34,104 bases of DNA. Source: Bernardetiaceae bacterium (GTDB lineage: Bacteria; Bacteroidota; Bacteroidia; Cytophagales; Thermoflexibacteraceae). A model generated the notes under the pieces. The model did not search any database, was not told the DNA's origin, and saw nothing but the letters and a program-made list of their open reading frames with translations. The stretch spans positions 1 through 34,104 of the forward strand of contig JALONO010000006.1 in assembly GCA_025454895.1 (NCBI GenBank), read 5' to 3'. How positions within the stretch are numbered: position 1 is the first letter of the stretch; each line of letters opens with the position of its first letter. The position numbers and the translations under genes are program-made. Shown here in pieces: positions 14,806 to 22,370 of the stretch.

Positions 14806-16182
14806 TTATTGATAAAGCTCGATTTTCTCGTTTTTATGCTTGCCGTTGGTGCTGGGGGCTATTTCTTCTTTGCCCTCGAAAAACACCAAAACGTCGTTTA
14901 CTTTCTCGTCGTGTTGGCTCACGTCCAGGCCCATTTCTTCAAACTCGGGTTTCACGCGCACCTTGATGAGCGCGCTAGTGAGCAGGTACAGTACGTATGC
15001 GCCCCCGAAGGTGAACGCGCCCACGATCAACAAGGCAAGCATGTGGTACATAAAAGTGCTGGTTTGGCCGTAGATGAGGCCCACGTCTTTGGCGAAAACC
15101 CCGGTGCAGATCATGCCCACAATGCCGCCCACGCCGTGGCAGGCAAACACGTCCAGCGTATCGTCCAGCTTGTTTTTGTTGCTGGTGAGCCGCACGGCCA
15201 TGTTGCTGATGATGGCCCCGATAACGCCGATGAAGAGGCTTTGCCCCACGGTTACAAAACCGGCCGCCGGAGTGATGGCTACTAAGCCTACCACGGCCCC
15301 AATGGCCGCGCCCATGGCCGAGGGTTTCTTGCCCATCACGCCGTCAAAGAACGCCCAGGTGAGCATGGCGGCGGCCGAAGCGGTGTTGGTGTTCATAAAG
15401 GCCGAAACAGCTAACTCGTTGGCAGCCAGGGCCGAACCAGCATTGAACCCAAACCAACCAAACCACAATAAGCCCGTGCCCAATAAGATGAAGGGCAAGT
15501 TGTGGGGATCGTGGCCGCTTACTTTACGGCGGCCCAGTACCAAAGCTCCGGCCAAAGCGGCAAACCCGGCCGAAATATGGACTACCGTGCCCCCGGCAAA
15601 GTCAAGCACGCCCCATTTGCGCAAAAAGCCTTCGGGGTGCCAGGTCCAGTGGGCCAGCGGCGCATAAATGAACACGCTAAACAGCACAATGAACAGCAAG
15701 AAAGCCGAAAAACGGATCCGCTCGGCAAAACCACCGGTAATGAGGGCCGGGGTGATAATAGCAAACTTGAGTTGGAACAACGCAAACAACGCCAGCGGAA
15801 TGGTGGGCGAAAGGGCCGCATTGGTGGCCACGCCTACATTTTTGAACATGAAAAAGGTAGCCGGGTTGCCAATGATGCCCCCGAGGCTATCGCCGAAGGC
15901 TAGGCTAAAACCTACCACTACCCACAAGATGCTGATCACGCCCAGGGCGATGAAACTCTGCAACATGGTGGACACCACGTTTTTAAACCGCACCATGCCC
16001 CCGTAAAAAAAGGCCAAGCCGGGGGTCATCAGCATCACCAAGGCCGAGGCGGTGAGCATCCAGGCCACATCGCCGGGGTTAATGGGGTGTTCGGCATCGG
16101 GCGCGGTGGTGGCCGTGGGCACTAACCCTAGTAGGGCTACTAGGGCGAGTATGCCAAAAGGAAGGGTCCACTTTTTCATCAT
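14806..16182 (-). CDS. amt: ammonium transporter (Amt/MEP/Rh)
   Basis: This inner-membrane channel for ammonium has 458 residues. A signal-like N-terminal helix is followed by a pore of about eleven helices. Key residues are present: LDFAGGTVVHISAG carries the recruitment-site aspartate and the first pore histidine, and CHGVGGIVG the second pore histidine. The region TPGLAFFYGGMVR is also diagnostic. The C-terminal cytoplasmic tail (about the last 60 residues) is charged and contains EFEEMGLDVSQHDE, a PII-interaction type motif. However, no glnB or glnK lies next to it. It is downstream of the porin gene on the same strand, 269 bases away, with its own possible -7 box at 16202. Confidence 0.93.
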   Translation of the reverse strand: MMKKWTLPFGILALVALLGLVPTATTAPDAEHPINPGDVAWMLTASALVMLMTPGLAFFYGGMVRFKNVVSTMLQSFIALGVISILWVVVGFSLAFGDSLGGIIGNPATFFMFKNVGVATNAALSPTIPLALFALFQLKFAIITPALITGGFAERIRFSAFLLFIVLFSVFIYAPLAHWTWHPEGFLRKWGVLDFAGGTVVHISAGFAALAGALVLGRRKVSGHDPHNLPFILLGTGLLWFGWFGFNAGSALAANELAVSAFMNTNTASAAAMLTWAFFDGVMGKKPSAMGAAIGAVVGLVAITPAAGFVTVGQSLFIGVIGAIISNMAVRLTSNKNKLDDTLDVFACHGVGGIVGMICTGVFAKDVGLIYGQTSTFMYHMLALLIVGAFTFGGAYVLYLLTSALIKVRVKPEFEEMGLDVSQHDEKVNDVLVFFEGKEEIAPSTNGKHKNEKIELYQ

Positions 16183-16451: not shown

Positions 16452-17717
16452 TTAAAAGGAATAAATAGCCGCCATGCCAAAAGTAACCTGTGAGTTTTTG
16501 GTGAACTTGCCGTTGCTGTCCATGAACTGTTGGCTTTCCTTGTTGGCCGCGCCGTCCAGTTTGTTAAAAATGTCGGCCCGTAGCTCCGGCTTGAGCTGCA
16601 AATGCCCATCGGCTAGTTTAAAGGTGCCCGTGAGGGTGAAGGTGCGCACGTCGGCCCCCACGGCGGTGCCGGTATGGTCCACGTTGCGCAGGCCGCGTGC
16701 CCCTTGCAGGTTGCTGAAATACTCGCTGCGCAGGCCGAGGCTGAACACATCGGTAGCAAAATAGGTGAGGTAGAGGTTAAAGCCCTCCCAATGGTGCCAG
16801 CTAGTGAGGTCGCCGTCGGCCACGGCAAACGTGCCGGGGGCGTCCACTTGGCCTTTTTGGGCACCGAACATGGTCCAAAAGCCGATGTGGAGTTTTTCGC
16901 TGGCCTTCCACACCCCGTTCAGGTCTACCACCTGGAAAATGCCCGCCGGGGTCTTGCCCAGGCTATCGGTGTTGGCCTCGTTAGTGCGGATGTAGTTCAG
17001 GTAAGCACTGAACTTCTCGCTCGGCGACACGGCCAGTTGGCCAATAATGCCCTTCTTGCGGTTGTTGTCGTTCGCGAAATCGAACCCGTTGGTAACCCCC
17101 AGCATGGCCGTTACCTTGTCGCTGATTTTCAGCGTTGACTTAAGGCCCGTGTGGTAAAACGGCACCCCGGAGTTGAACGTGTGGTTAATCGAGTAGTGGT
17201 AGTTGAGCGGGGCATCGATGTACTCGTACCCGATGTGCGTGCCAAACTGCCCCGCCGTAAACGACAGCCGGTCAGTGGCGTGGAAAGTGAAAAACGCCTG
17301 TTTGATGATCAGGGCCGAAGCGGCATCGTTGAATACTGGCGTGCCGTAAAAGCTGGACCGGACGCCAAGCGAGGTGGGCACGTTGCCATAGTTACCGTAA
17401 ACGGCGTTTGGTCCGTAGGCCAGGTCGGCCACTAGCTCGCTTTTCTTGGTGGTGTATTTGAACACCGTTTGCACCATGCCCAGTTGAAACTGATCCACTC
17501 GGCGGTCGAAGCCCCGACCTACCCCGCTCTGGCCCATATTATCACGTGAGGCGGGGCGGTTGAAGTTGGTGAAATAGTAGGTGTCAAAGTAACCGTTGAT
17601 GGTTAGCTTGCCGGGTTCTTCTTCTTTTTTGGGCAACGAGGCGGAGTCGGGATCGGCGGCGAAGGCTGCTTGGAGGGCAAAGCAGTAGCACCCCACTATA
17701 AGGAGAGTTTTTTTCAT
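16452..17717 (-). CDS. outer-membrane beta-barrel porin, OmpL/BBP2-like
   Basis: The 421-residue protein has a clear signal peptide (MKKTLLIVGCYCFALQAAFA, cut near residue 20). The mature part has alternating aromatic and polar residues, as in beta-barrels: GYFDTYYFTNFNRP near 42, then repeated strands such as LSFTAGQFGTHIGYEYIDAP, and a terminal strand ending MAAIYSF with the C-terminal Phe of outer-membrane proteins. This matches the putative beta-barrel porin-2 family. Its position before amt suggests that it lets small nitrogen compounds cross the outer membrane, but that is inference from context. An AAGTTTTG box with a 14-base palindrome lies 120 bases upstream. Confidence 0.8.
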   Translation of the reverse strand: MKKTLLIVGCYCFALQAAFAADPDSASLPKKEEEPGKLTINGYFDTYYFTNFNRPASRDNMGQSGVGRGFDRRVDQFQLGMVQTVFKYTTKKSELVADLAYGPNAVYGNYGNVPTSLGVRSSFYGTPVFNDAASALIIKQAFFTFHATDRLSFTAGQFGTHIGYEYIDAPLNYHYSINHTFNSGVPFYHTGLKSTLKISDKVTAMLGVTNGFDFANDNNRKKGIIGQLAVSPSEKFSAYLNYIRTNEANTDSLGKTPAGIFQVVDLNGVWKASEKLHIGFWTMFGAQKGQVDAPGTFAVADGDLTSWHHWEGFNLYLTYFATDVFSLGLRSEYFSNLQGARGLRNVDHTGTAVGADVRTFTLTGTFKLADGHLQLKPELRADIFNKLDGAANKESQQFMDSNGKFTKNSQVTFGMAAIYSF

Positions 17718-20959: not shown

Positions 20960-20983
20960 AAGCCTTGCACTATGGCAAGGCTT
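20960..20983 (-). terminator. Rho-independent terminator after siaB-siaC
   Basis: A 9-bp perfect stem aagccttgc / gcaaggctt with a 6-base loop is followed on the minus strand by TTTTG. It is 55 bases past the siaC stop. It may also stop hisIE transcripts coming from the left. Confidence 0.75.
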
Positions 20984-21038: not shown

Positions 21039-21446
21039 TTAAACTTGGTGGATGTCGATGGGCACGCCCACGAACCGCACGTAGTCTTCCACTTCCTCCA
21101 GCATGTCGTAGTCGTCCTTGGGCACGAACCAGGAAATTTTTACCGGCCCACCCGCATCGTGGTGCTTTTTCATCACCTTGATGATATCGAGCAAATACTT
21201 AGACGAACTTGTGTTATAGTATTGAAGGTTAAAGGTGAAATTGAGTGGCTGGAGCCCTTGGGCAGTATATTGTTCCAACCATTGCACCACTGGGCGGTAG
21301 AAATCAAGGGTATCCTCGATGTAAGACTCGCCCGAAAGCTCGCACTCACCAGTTGCTGCATTCATGAACACTCGGGGAGTAAAAAACTCTCCCTTAGTGG
21401 CTTGAATGTCAATATTTTCCATTTGGTTAAGATGATTAAGTGACAT
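21039..21446 (-). CDS. siaC: SiaC-family regulatory phosphoprotein (DUF1987)
   Basis: In Pseudomonas, SiaC is a small partner-switch protein that binds and activates the diguanylate cyclase SiaD when unphosphorylated, and is phosphorylated by SiaB. This 135-residue protein matches the DUF1987 pattern: a TPRV segment near residue 23, FNLQYYNTSSSKYLLDI near 72-88, and a C-terminal DYDMLEEVEDY. NTSSSK (78-83) is the likely phosphorylation loop. A second ATG at 21422 (MENIDIQATKGEFFTPRV) is an equally good start. The ATG at 21446 is 12 bases after siaB, so they form one operon. No diguanylate cyclase is nearby, so the target is unknown. Confidence 0.85.
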   Translation of the reverse strand: MSLNHLNQMENIDIQATKGEFFTPRVFMNAATGECELSGESYIEDTLDFYRPVVQWLEQYTAQGLQPLNFTFNLQYYNTSSSKYLLDIIKVMKKHHDAGGPVKISWFVPKDDYDMLEEVEDYVRFVGVPIDIHQV

Positions 21447-21458
21447 AAATAGAATAGG

Positions 21459-22043
21459 TTAGGCGGCTTTTTTCTTTACGTTTACCGAGATTGCAAAAAA
21501 CGAAATTTGCTCGTTGATTTCGGCAACTTCCGCCTCCAGGGGTTCGGCCGAGGTGAGGGCGATGTGGATAAGGCCCACCCCAGCACCTTTGCTAAACTCA
21601 TTGGCAGCCCCGGTGCGATTCTTTTCCTCGAACTTAAGCCGACGCAAAGTTTCCCGGTCAGAATTATTGATAAGCTGGCATTTATCCACCAAAATAGGCA
21701 CGGCCCGCCGGGAAACCAAATTACCAGCGGTGATTGAGTAGGCATCTTCCGATTCGGTAACCACAATGGTACCAATACCCTCGTTGCGGATACCGAATTT
21801 GTTTACCTCGGCTGAATAGTTGAAAATGTTTTGGGCCAGTTCCATAAAAATGGAATAGACTTTTTTGCCCGCAACCAAATCCTTCACCAGGCGGTTCTGG
21901 ATTTCTTTGCTCATTTCGTACATAATGGTGCTCGAGAACGGCCCCTTGTACGACACGATCACATCCTCGTGGCTAAGGTTAATATAGTGGTGATAAAAAC
22001 TGAACTTCTTTTTTTCCATCAAGGACAATGCACTTTGGGTCAT
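21459..22043 (-). CDS. siaB: SiaB-family protein kinase (GHKL-type ATPase fold)
   Basis: The 194-residue protein resembles SiaB, a kinase with an anti-sigma-factor/GHKL fold that phosphorylates SiaC. The N-box is ELAQNIFNYS (68-77), with the Mg-binding Asn, and the glycine-rich lid is SKGAGVGLIHIA (about 151-162). No membrane segment or sensor domain is present, so input must come from elsewhere, for example a SiaA-type PP2C phosphatase that would oppose it. None is in the window. siaC follows directly. The upstream region has an AT-rich inverted repeat (22055-22069) but no clear TAnnTTTG. An ATG at residue 9 (MEKKKFSFYHHY) is an alternative start. Confidence 0.83.
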   Translation of the reverse strand: MTQSALSLMEKKKFSFYHHYINLSHEDVIVSYKGPFSSTIMYEMSKEIQNRLVKDLVAGKKVYSIFMELAQNIFNYSAEVNKFGIRNEGIGTIVVTESEDAYSITAGNLVSRRAVPILVDKCQLINNSDRETLRRLKFEEKNRTGAANEFSKGAGVGLIHIALTSAEPLEAEVAEINEQISFFAISVNVKKKAA

Positions 22044-22370
22044 TTGTGCGGTGCAATTTAATGTAAATTAACGCAATGCAAGTGTGCAATAAGGTTTACC
22101 CAACTGGTTGCACGGGGTAAAATTGAGAGCGAACTAGATCAAAACCAGCCAGTTTTAAACTTGGGGCATCATTCTTATTAGGCCGCACTCGGGGGCCAAC
22201 CTTGGTAGGAGGATGGTTAACAGTTGCCAAACCTGTCCAATTTTGGCTTTTCCTATTAATTTCAAAGGTTGGGCCAAAGTCATGGGGGAAATGCTACTAA
22301 ATGGGGATCAAAAAGCCCAATGTAAGTTTTAGCTCAGTTGAGTTGATTTACCGAGCACGCGGAGGGGCAA
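22044..22370 (-). other. intergenic region between siaB and the aminotransferase
   Basis: No gene is recognised. It contains an inverted repeat AATTTA-ATG-TAAATT (22055-22069) just upstream of siaB and a hairpin GCCAAA / TTTGGC (22226-22231 / 22242-22247). No consensus -7 box or strong terminator was found, although the siaB promoter and the end of the maf transcript should lie here. Confidence 0.5.

Follow-up and report, generated by a model that had tools for sequence, protein, structure and literature searches.

The SiaB–SiaC pair is best known from a biofilm circuit of Pseudomonas, where SiaC has been studied as the activator of a c-di-GMP enzyme. In the crystal structure of SiaC with SiaD, T68 of SiaC bonds S82 and Q86 of the SiaD stalk helix, and a second SiaC site on SiaD involves S50 and Q54 (PMC8457831); the authors of that eLife study proposed modulation of neighboring proteins as a general role of the DUF1987 family. 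We analyzed a siaB–siaC pair within a 34,104-nt stretch of a Bernardetiaceae bacterium contig (hereafter, the window). Judging from its genes and motifs, the pair is probably a working SiaABC-type Ser/Thr partner switch whose output is something other than c-di-GMP.

The siaB–siaC pair and its surroundings

The siaB product matched PF19788 (DUF6272; E 1.3e-31) and scored 137.7 bits against the NCBIfam SiaB_fam_kinase model (NF038262; cut-off 85), which places it in the SiaB kinase family; its 90.8 bits lay below the Pseudomonas equivalog cut-off of 225 (NCBIfam pair of models NF038264/NF038265). P. aeruginosa SiaB (6kko_A) was matched both by sequence (E 9e-17) and by fold (E 6e-11). For the AlphaFold model (pLDDT 86.5), 6kko SiaB was the best match among all PDB chains, and the next nearest folds include the GHKL kinases UsfX and SpoIIAB. 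Within the N-box, E68 and N72 are invariant and Q71 is conserved at ≥90% in 36 SiaBs, and all three residues are invariant in a 15-sequence set. The sequence-only reading had held that loss of ATP binding by SiaB would argue against a switch; the conserved N-box and glycine motifs (Table 1) give no sign of such a loss.

The siaC product matched PF09345 (E 2.1e-36; 124.6 bits against a curated cut-off of 24.5) and is thus a member of the SiaC family, with a score of 76.2 bits against the Pseudomonas equivalog cut-off of 150 (same pair of models). Its sequence match in the PDB was P. aeruginosa SiaC (6kko/6k4f; E 7e-16), and by sequence the P. aeruginosa proteins are the sole convincing PDB relatives of both SiaC and SiaB. 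The AlphaFold model of SiaC (pLDDT 90.8) had 6kko_D SiaC as its best match among all PDB chains (E 6e-10), and SpoIIAA was a weak structural match. SiaC and DUF6272 were the only significant Pfam matches of the pair, with no match that would assign either protein to STAS or HATPase_c_2.

The NTSSSK loop, earlier read as a retained phosphorylation loop, is present in the window SiaC. Based on a gap-free alignment to 6kko_C, T79 corresponds to P. aeruginosa T68; it is invariant across 106 Bacteroidota SiaCs, and in the predicted structure the helix spanning residues 79–97 starts at T79, so that an N-T/S-S loop with a phosphorylatable residue is in place. Beyond the N-T-S core, residues that contact SiaD in P. 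aeruginosa are changed (D79 to K90 and R103 to D114). We dropped a reading of these changes as loss of SiaD binding, because GGDEF-linked SiaCs diverge equally at these positions and the comparison therefore does not discriminate.

The two genes lie 12 bases apart, as the sequence-only reading had it, and this close arrangement is typical of adjacent SiaB–SiaC pairs in relatives (median gap <20 bp, n=92). That reading also assigned the pair its own terminator; a hairpin does lie 56 nt downstream of siaC, but terminator-like sites in the region barely exceed chance (4 found vs 2.0 ± 1.8 expected). The promoter of siaB presumably lies in the intergenic region upstream of the gene. A scan found no sigma-70-like site there on the minus strand, which is not unexpected because Bacteroidota promoters differ from the sigma-70-like consensus.

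The pair is surrounded by hisIE, an aminotransferase-like gene, and Maf. In agreement with the earlier claim that neither SiaA nor SiaD is adjacent, no PP2C gene was found in the 34-kb window, and no GGDEF, sigma, or anti-sigma gene was found near the pair. Elsewhere in the window, an ammonium-transporter-like gene (14806–16182, minus strand) and a gene for a porin-like beta-barrel protein (16452–17717, minus strand) were recognized by eye.

Table 1. Features of the window (positions only) and of related loci (locus:positions)
Feature	Location	Strand	Description or basis
siaC	21039..21446	-	SiaC/DUF1987 regulatory phosphoprotein, STAS-like fold, 135 aa
siaB	21459..22043	-	GHKL-fold SiaB-family serine/threonine protein kinase, 194 aa
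siaB–siaC gap	21447..21458	-	12 bp; close same-strand arrangement kept in relatives
T79 codon of siaC	21210..21212	-	predicted phosphorylation site at start of helix alpha-2; alignment to 6kko_C T68
SiaB N-box E68-L-A-Q71-N72	21828..21842	-	ATP/Mg binding in GHKL kinases; two SiaB alignments
SiaB G107-N108	21720..21725	-	at place of GHKL G1 box; (near-)invariant in both SiaB alignments
SiaB G157	21573..21575	-	G2-box glycine; invariant in both SiaB alignments
Terminator-like hairpin after siaC	20960..20983	-	9 bp stem, 6 nt loop, T-rich tail; consensus scan
Intergenic region upstream of siaB	22044..22370	.	327 bp; ORF map
CheR-CheB-GAF-[dCache/HAMP/GAF/PAS-PP2C]-SiaB-SiaC-ABC/ABC2	L027:1666-14209		conserved Bacteroidia operon, then a protein without known family
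148-aa protein gene	L064:6950-7396	+	conserved, directly upstream of siaB; equivalents in L060, L062, L063, L065
PP2C(-SiaB)-SiaC operons with small helical stalk protein	L146:1-3963; L148:1179-4361; L147:4003-4302		stalk protein (77–99 aa) comes after SiaC
Stalk genes with two hydrophobic segments	L049:922-1416; L195:3334-3933; L244:3757-4251; L248:4572-5189	-; -; -; +	right after SiaB-SiaC
SiaC–stalk fusion	L222:4152-5126	+	stalk and membrane helices joined to SiaC in one protein
SiaB–SiaC fusion	L153:3774-4739	-	stalk protein comes after
SiaB–PP2C fusion	L145:4662-6539	-	

Paralogues, PP2C genes, and GGDEF proteins

We searched the whole genome assembly (4.58 Mb, 389 contigs, 95.6% complete) and found exactly six genes for SiaC and as many for SiaB, every one side by side with its partner, with paralogues sharing 30–56% (SiaC) and 22–43% (SiaB) aa identity. 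The same search returned 26 SpoIIE/PP2C matches, corresponding to about 25 genes. Because the genome has only three genes for STAS proteins and two for short RsbW-type HATPase_c_2 proteins, all outside the window's contig, the SiaCs are the main candidate substrates of these PP2Cs. One paralogous pair, on contig C281, lies in an operon of CheR, CheB, a GAF protein, a dCache/HAMP/GAF/PAS-PP2C protein, SiaB, SiaC, and an ABC/ABC-2 transporter; the PP2C protein is a SiaA in everything except its name. This operon also occurs in other Bacteroidia (L131, L134, L138, L139, and L152). The window pair and the four other pairs have no adjoining PP2C or recognized effector. The earlier statement that the pair has no known partner nearby therefore stands for adjacent genes but does not extend to the genome: with six pairs, abundant PP2Cs, and the complete C281 operon, the window pair belongs to an expanded network, within which it is an orphan, and is not a lone system.

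PP2C genes accompany SiaC more widely. A SpoIIE/PP2C gene lies within four genes of SiaC at 43 of the 84 loci nearest to the window's, and PP2C-SiaB-SiaC-PP2C-SiaC is a frequent gene order. Across 39 genomes sampled from the order, SiaC and PP2C copy numbers rise together (Spearman rho 0.90; 0.89 when the window's family is left out; PP2C counts near 62 per genome are lower bounds); SiaC copy number does not track genome size, and genomes without SiaC carry 0–3 PP2Cs. PP2C is very probably the input of the SiaBC switch. SiaB and SiaC distances correlate over 92 pairs (r = 0.85; permutation maximum 0.16), so the two genes travel together, a co-divergence also expected from plain linkage and common descent.

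A search for GGDEF domains gave no match in the window organism's genome (about 4% of which is missing from the assembly), nor in the 39-genome sample of the order; SiaC is present in 32 of these 39, at up to 18 copies each. The same search did match GGDEF domains in 8 of 14 control genomes and, across the phylum, in 108 of 198 sampled genomes, and canonical PP2C-SiaB-SiaC-GGDEF operons in two genomes of another class of the phylum (L140 and L141) served as a positive control. The output of the window pair is not c-di-GMP, as the sequence-only reading had surmised. That reading had also named a siaA–siaD pair elsewhere in the genome as grounds for a split form of the known system; there is none, because the genome has no GGDEF. 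In this order, whose sampled genomes gave no GGDEF protein, SiaBC seems to be the principal Ser/Thr partner switch.

Phylogenetic analysis placed the window pair in a clade (SH-aLRT 99) of eight rows from several families, including the pairs of Thermonema, Raineya, and other Cytophagales, all of which keep SiaB–SiaC intact. No member of the clade has a PP2C gene in the same gene run or a stalk gene beside the pair, which argues that the orphan state is old and not a recent loss. Our examination of the 34-kb window and of about 25% of the genome identified no effector or dedicated phosphatase for the window pair. The 148-aa protein upstream of siaB in several of the nearest relatives (cluster c6, five loci) was considered as a partner and set aside; neither Pfam nor NCBIfam matched it, and no homologue was detected in the window organism's genome, the empty genome search being weak evidence. 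The collection was scanned with a narrower alignment, the multi-paralogue alignment being too diverse.

A SiaC-docking stalk in relatives

Loci from other Bacteroidota and from one Acidobacteriota have, directly 3′ of SiaC, a gene whose product carries a look-alike of the SiaD stalk (...LLKQAxKITRISDSTQxKL...). The carriers comprise a histidine kinase (L142), a Ser/Thr kinase (L128), a PP2C (L144), two-helix membrane proteins (L145 and L153), and small helical proteins (L146, L147, and L148); in L146 and L148, a multi-AAA ATPase gene comes directly after the small stalk protein. We built a stalk profile from eight non-GGDEF proteins only, and it matched the stalks of both GGDEF proteins (E 6e-22 and 1e-17). 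Against 177,635 PDB sequences, P. aeruginosa SiaD (7e6g_A) ranked first (E 0.003; next 0.1), and the profile aligned to SiaD residues 22–56 and 64–99, which are its two crystallographic SiaC sites. Because a profile made without GGDEF proteins finds SiaD first, and at these sites, the analysis identifies the SiaC-binding helix of SiaD as a putative portable SiaC-docking stalk.

Within the window's order and family, a recurrent gene right after SiaC encodes a protein of 160–205 aa with an N-terminal stalk (ITKVSDRLQNKL), a coiled coil, and two hydrophobic segments that we read by eye as transmembrane helices (hereafter, stalk+2TM; loci L049, L050, L051, L052, L058, L047, L057, L043, L195, L244, and L248). 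This family has no Pfam or NCBIfam name, and the NCBIfam SiaD model weakly touches its stalk (E 0.003–0.06). Based on tree and synteny, the C119 pair of the window organism belongs to the stalk+2TM clade (its transglutaminase-like neighbor is 49–57% identical); this locus (L028:8707-10641) has a 150-nt gap where genomes of the same family hold the stalk+2TM gene between SiaC and the transglutaminase-like gene. No docking stalk was found in the window or in the 1.16 Mb (25%) of the genome that we read. The C281 ABC protein, checked as a possible stalk carrier, gave no convincing stalk match.

Among 197 distinct SiaC genes, 21 have an adjoining or fused stalk protein, 17 an ABC protein, and 17 a PP2C downstream. 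All 25 stalk matches among the 1,835 proteins of SiaC neighborhoods touch a SiaC gene, in a set that consists of SiaC loci by design and in which some of the matches trained the profile. On the SiaB+SiaC tree, pairs with the same output context tend to group together (19 changes vs 45 in shuffles). Two further arrangements were seen: SiaC is directly followed by a PAS-histidine kinase gene without a recognizable stalk at L087:8522-10069 and L088:1138-2613 (both plus strand), and a primary-type sigma-70 gene lies directly upstream of SiaB–SiaC at three Bacteroidales loci of one clade (L081, L096, and L106).

Proteins with the stalk are recognizable from their sequence, and the question of what SiaC does without c-di-GMP thereby becomes concretely testable by binding to SiaC. 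The literature that we searched, with few subscription journals and preprints within reach, did not describe a docking stalk outside SiaD or an expansion of SiaC in Bacteroidota.

Proposed mechanism, alternatives, and comparison with known systems

In the mechanism we propose, SiaB would phosphorylate SiaC at T79 with ATP, and one or more SpoIIE/PP2C sensor phosphatases encoded elsewhere in the genome would act in trans to dephosphorylate SiaC upon a signal. Unphosphorylated SiaC may then bind a helical segment of a non-GGDEF effector and alter the activity of that effector.

We consider it unlikely that the window SiaC serves the effector of another paralogue (e.g., the C281 ABC transporter), with the six pairs forming one network. 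Five of the six pairs have no adjacent PP2C or recognized effector, and about 25 PP2Cs stand against only six SiaCs; however, the paralogues are only distantly similar to each other, output context follows clade, and contact-site residues vary between clades. Action of SiaC in the manner of the STAS anti-anti-sigma factors that share its fold, lifting the inhibition of a sigma factor or of another regulator, is improbable. Such a role would fit the resemblance of SiaB to SpoIIAB and UsfX, the weak match of SiaC to SpoIIAA, and the sigma-70 gene just upstream of SiaB in the three related Bacteroidales loci, but those loci represent a single clade, the window pair has no sigma or anti-sigma neighbor, and the SiaC targets that can be recognized in relatives all carry a stalk and include no sigma or anti-sigma factor.

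The window pair could also be a leftover after loss of its phosphatase and effector genes, in keeping with the absence of partner genes nearby and with the paralogous C119 locus, which lacks the stalk+2TM gene held by relatives. We regard decay as quite improbable, since neither reading frame is broken and every catalytic and phospho-site residue is kept, and the orphan arrangement has persisted, as shown by its presence in all eight rows of the clade across several families. Least credible is a split SiaABCD system with SiaA and SiaD encoded elsewhere and c-di-GMP still the output. SiaA-like PP2Cs are indeed encoded elsewhere in the genome, and canonical SiaABCD operons occur elsewhere in the phylum; with GGDEF proteins absent from the 95.6%-complete genome and from the order sample and present in 8 of 14 controls, we rejected this explanation for GGDEF-type cyclases. 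A partner switch of the SiaABC type with another output is the reading we retain for the window pair. More generally, it is likely that SiaABC is an output-agnostic partner switch, with a helical stalk, first seen on SiaD, that is portable onto histidine kinases, Ser/Thr kinases, PP2Cs, small helical partners of AAA ATPases, and a new family of two-helix membrane proteins; that an order in which no GGDEF was found expanded this switch to up to 18 copies per genome; and that the window pair is a conserved orphan branch.

Compared with SiaABCD of P. aeruginosa (PDB 6kko, 6kkp, and 7e6g; PMC7647112, PMC8457831), the window locus has the same adjacent SiaB and SiaC genes, folds, and N-T-S phospho-loop, and PP2C phosphatases are encoded in its genome; unlike that system, it has no adjoining SiaA or SiaD, its genome has six paralogous pairs and no GGDEF, and both of its proteins fall under the NCBIfam equivalog cut-offs. 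It is not a SiaABCD system, because a PP2C neighbor and a GGDEF output were both tested and are both absent. The SiaB-SiaC-stalk+2TM loci (L049, L050, L051, L052, L058, L195, L244, and L248) share paralogous SiaBC and the lack of GGDEF, whereas the SiaD-like-stalk membrane protein that follows SiaC there has no counterpart after the window pair. The C281-type operons hold paralogous SiaBC in the same phylum, with the C281 SiaC only 38% identical to the window SiaC, and differ in having their own PP2C sensor and an ABC/ABC-2 transporter as the likely output. SpoIIAB/SpoIIAA and RsbW/RsbV, with SpoIIE/RsbU, share with the window pair a GHKL kinase, a STAS-like phosphoprotein, a SpoIIE-type phosphatase, and the switching logic, whereas the window pair consists of DUF6272 and DUF1987 proteins, not HATPase_c_2 and STAS, and as far as seen involves no sigma factor. 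Overall, SiaABC resembles a portable partner switch whose outputs can be exchanged.
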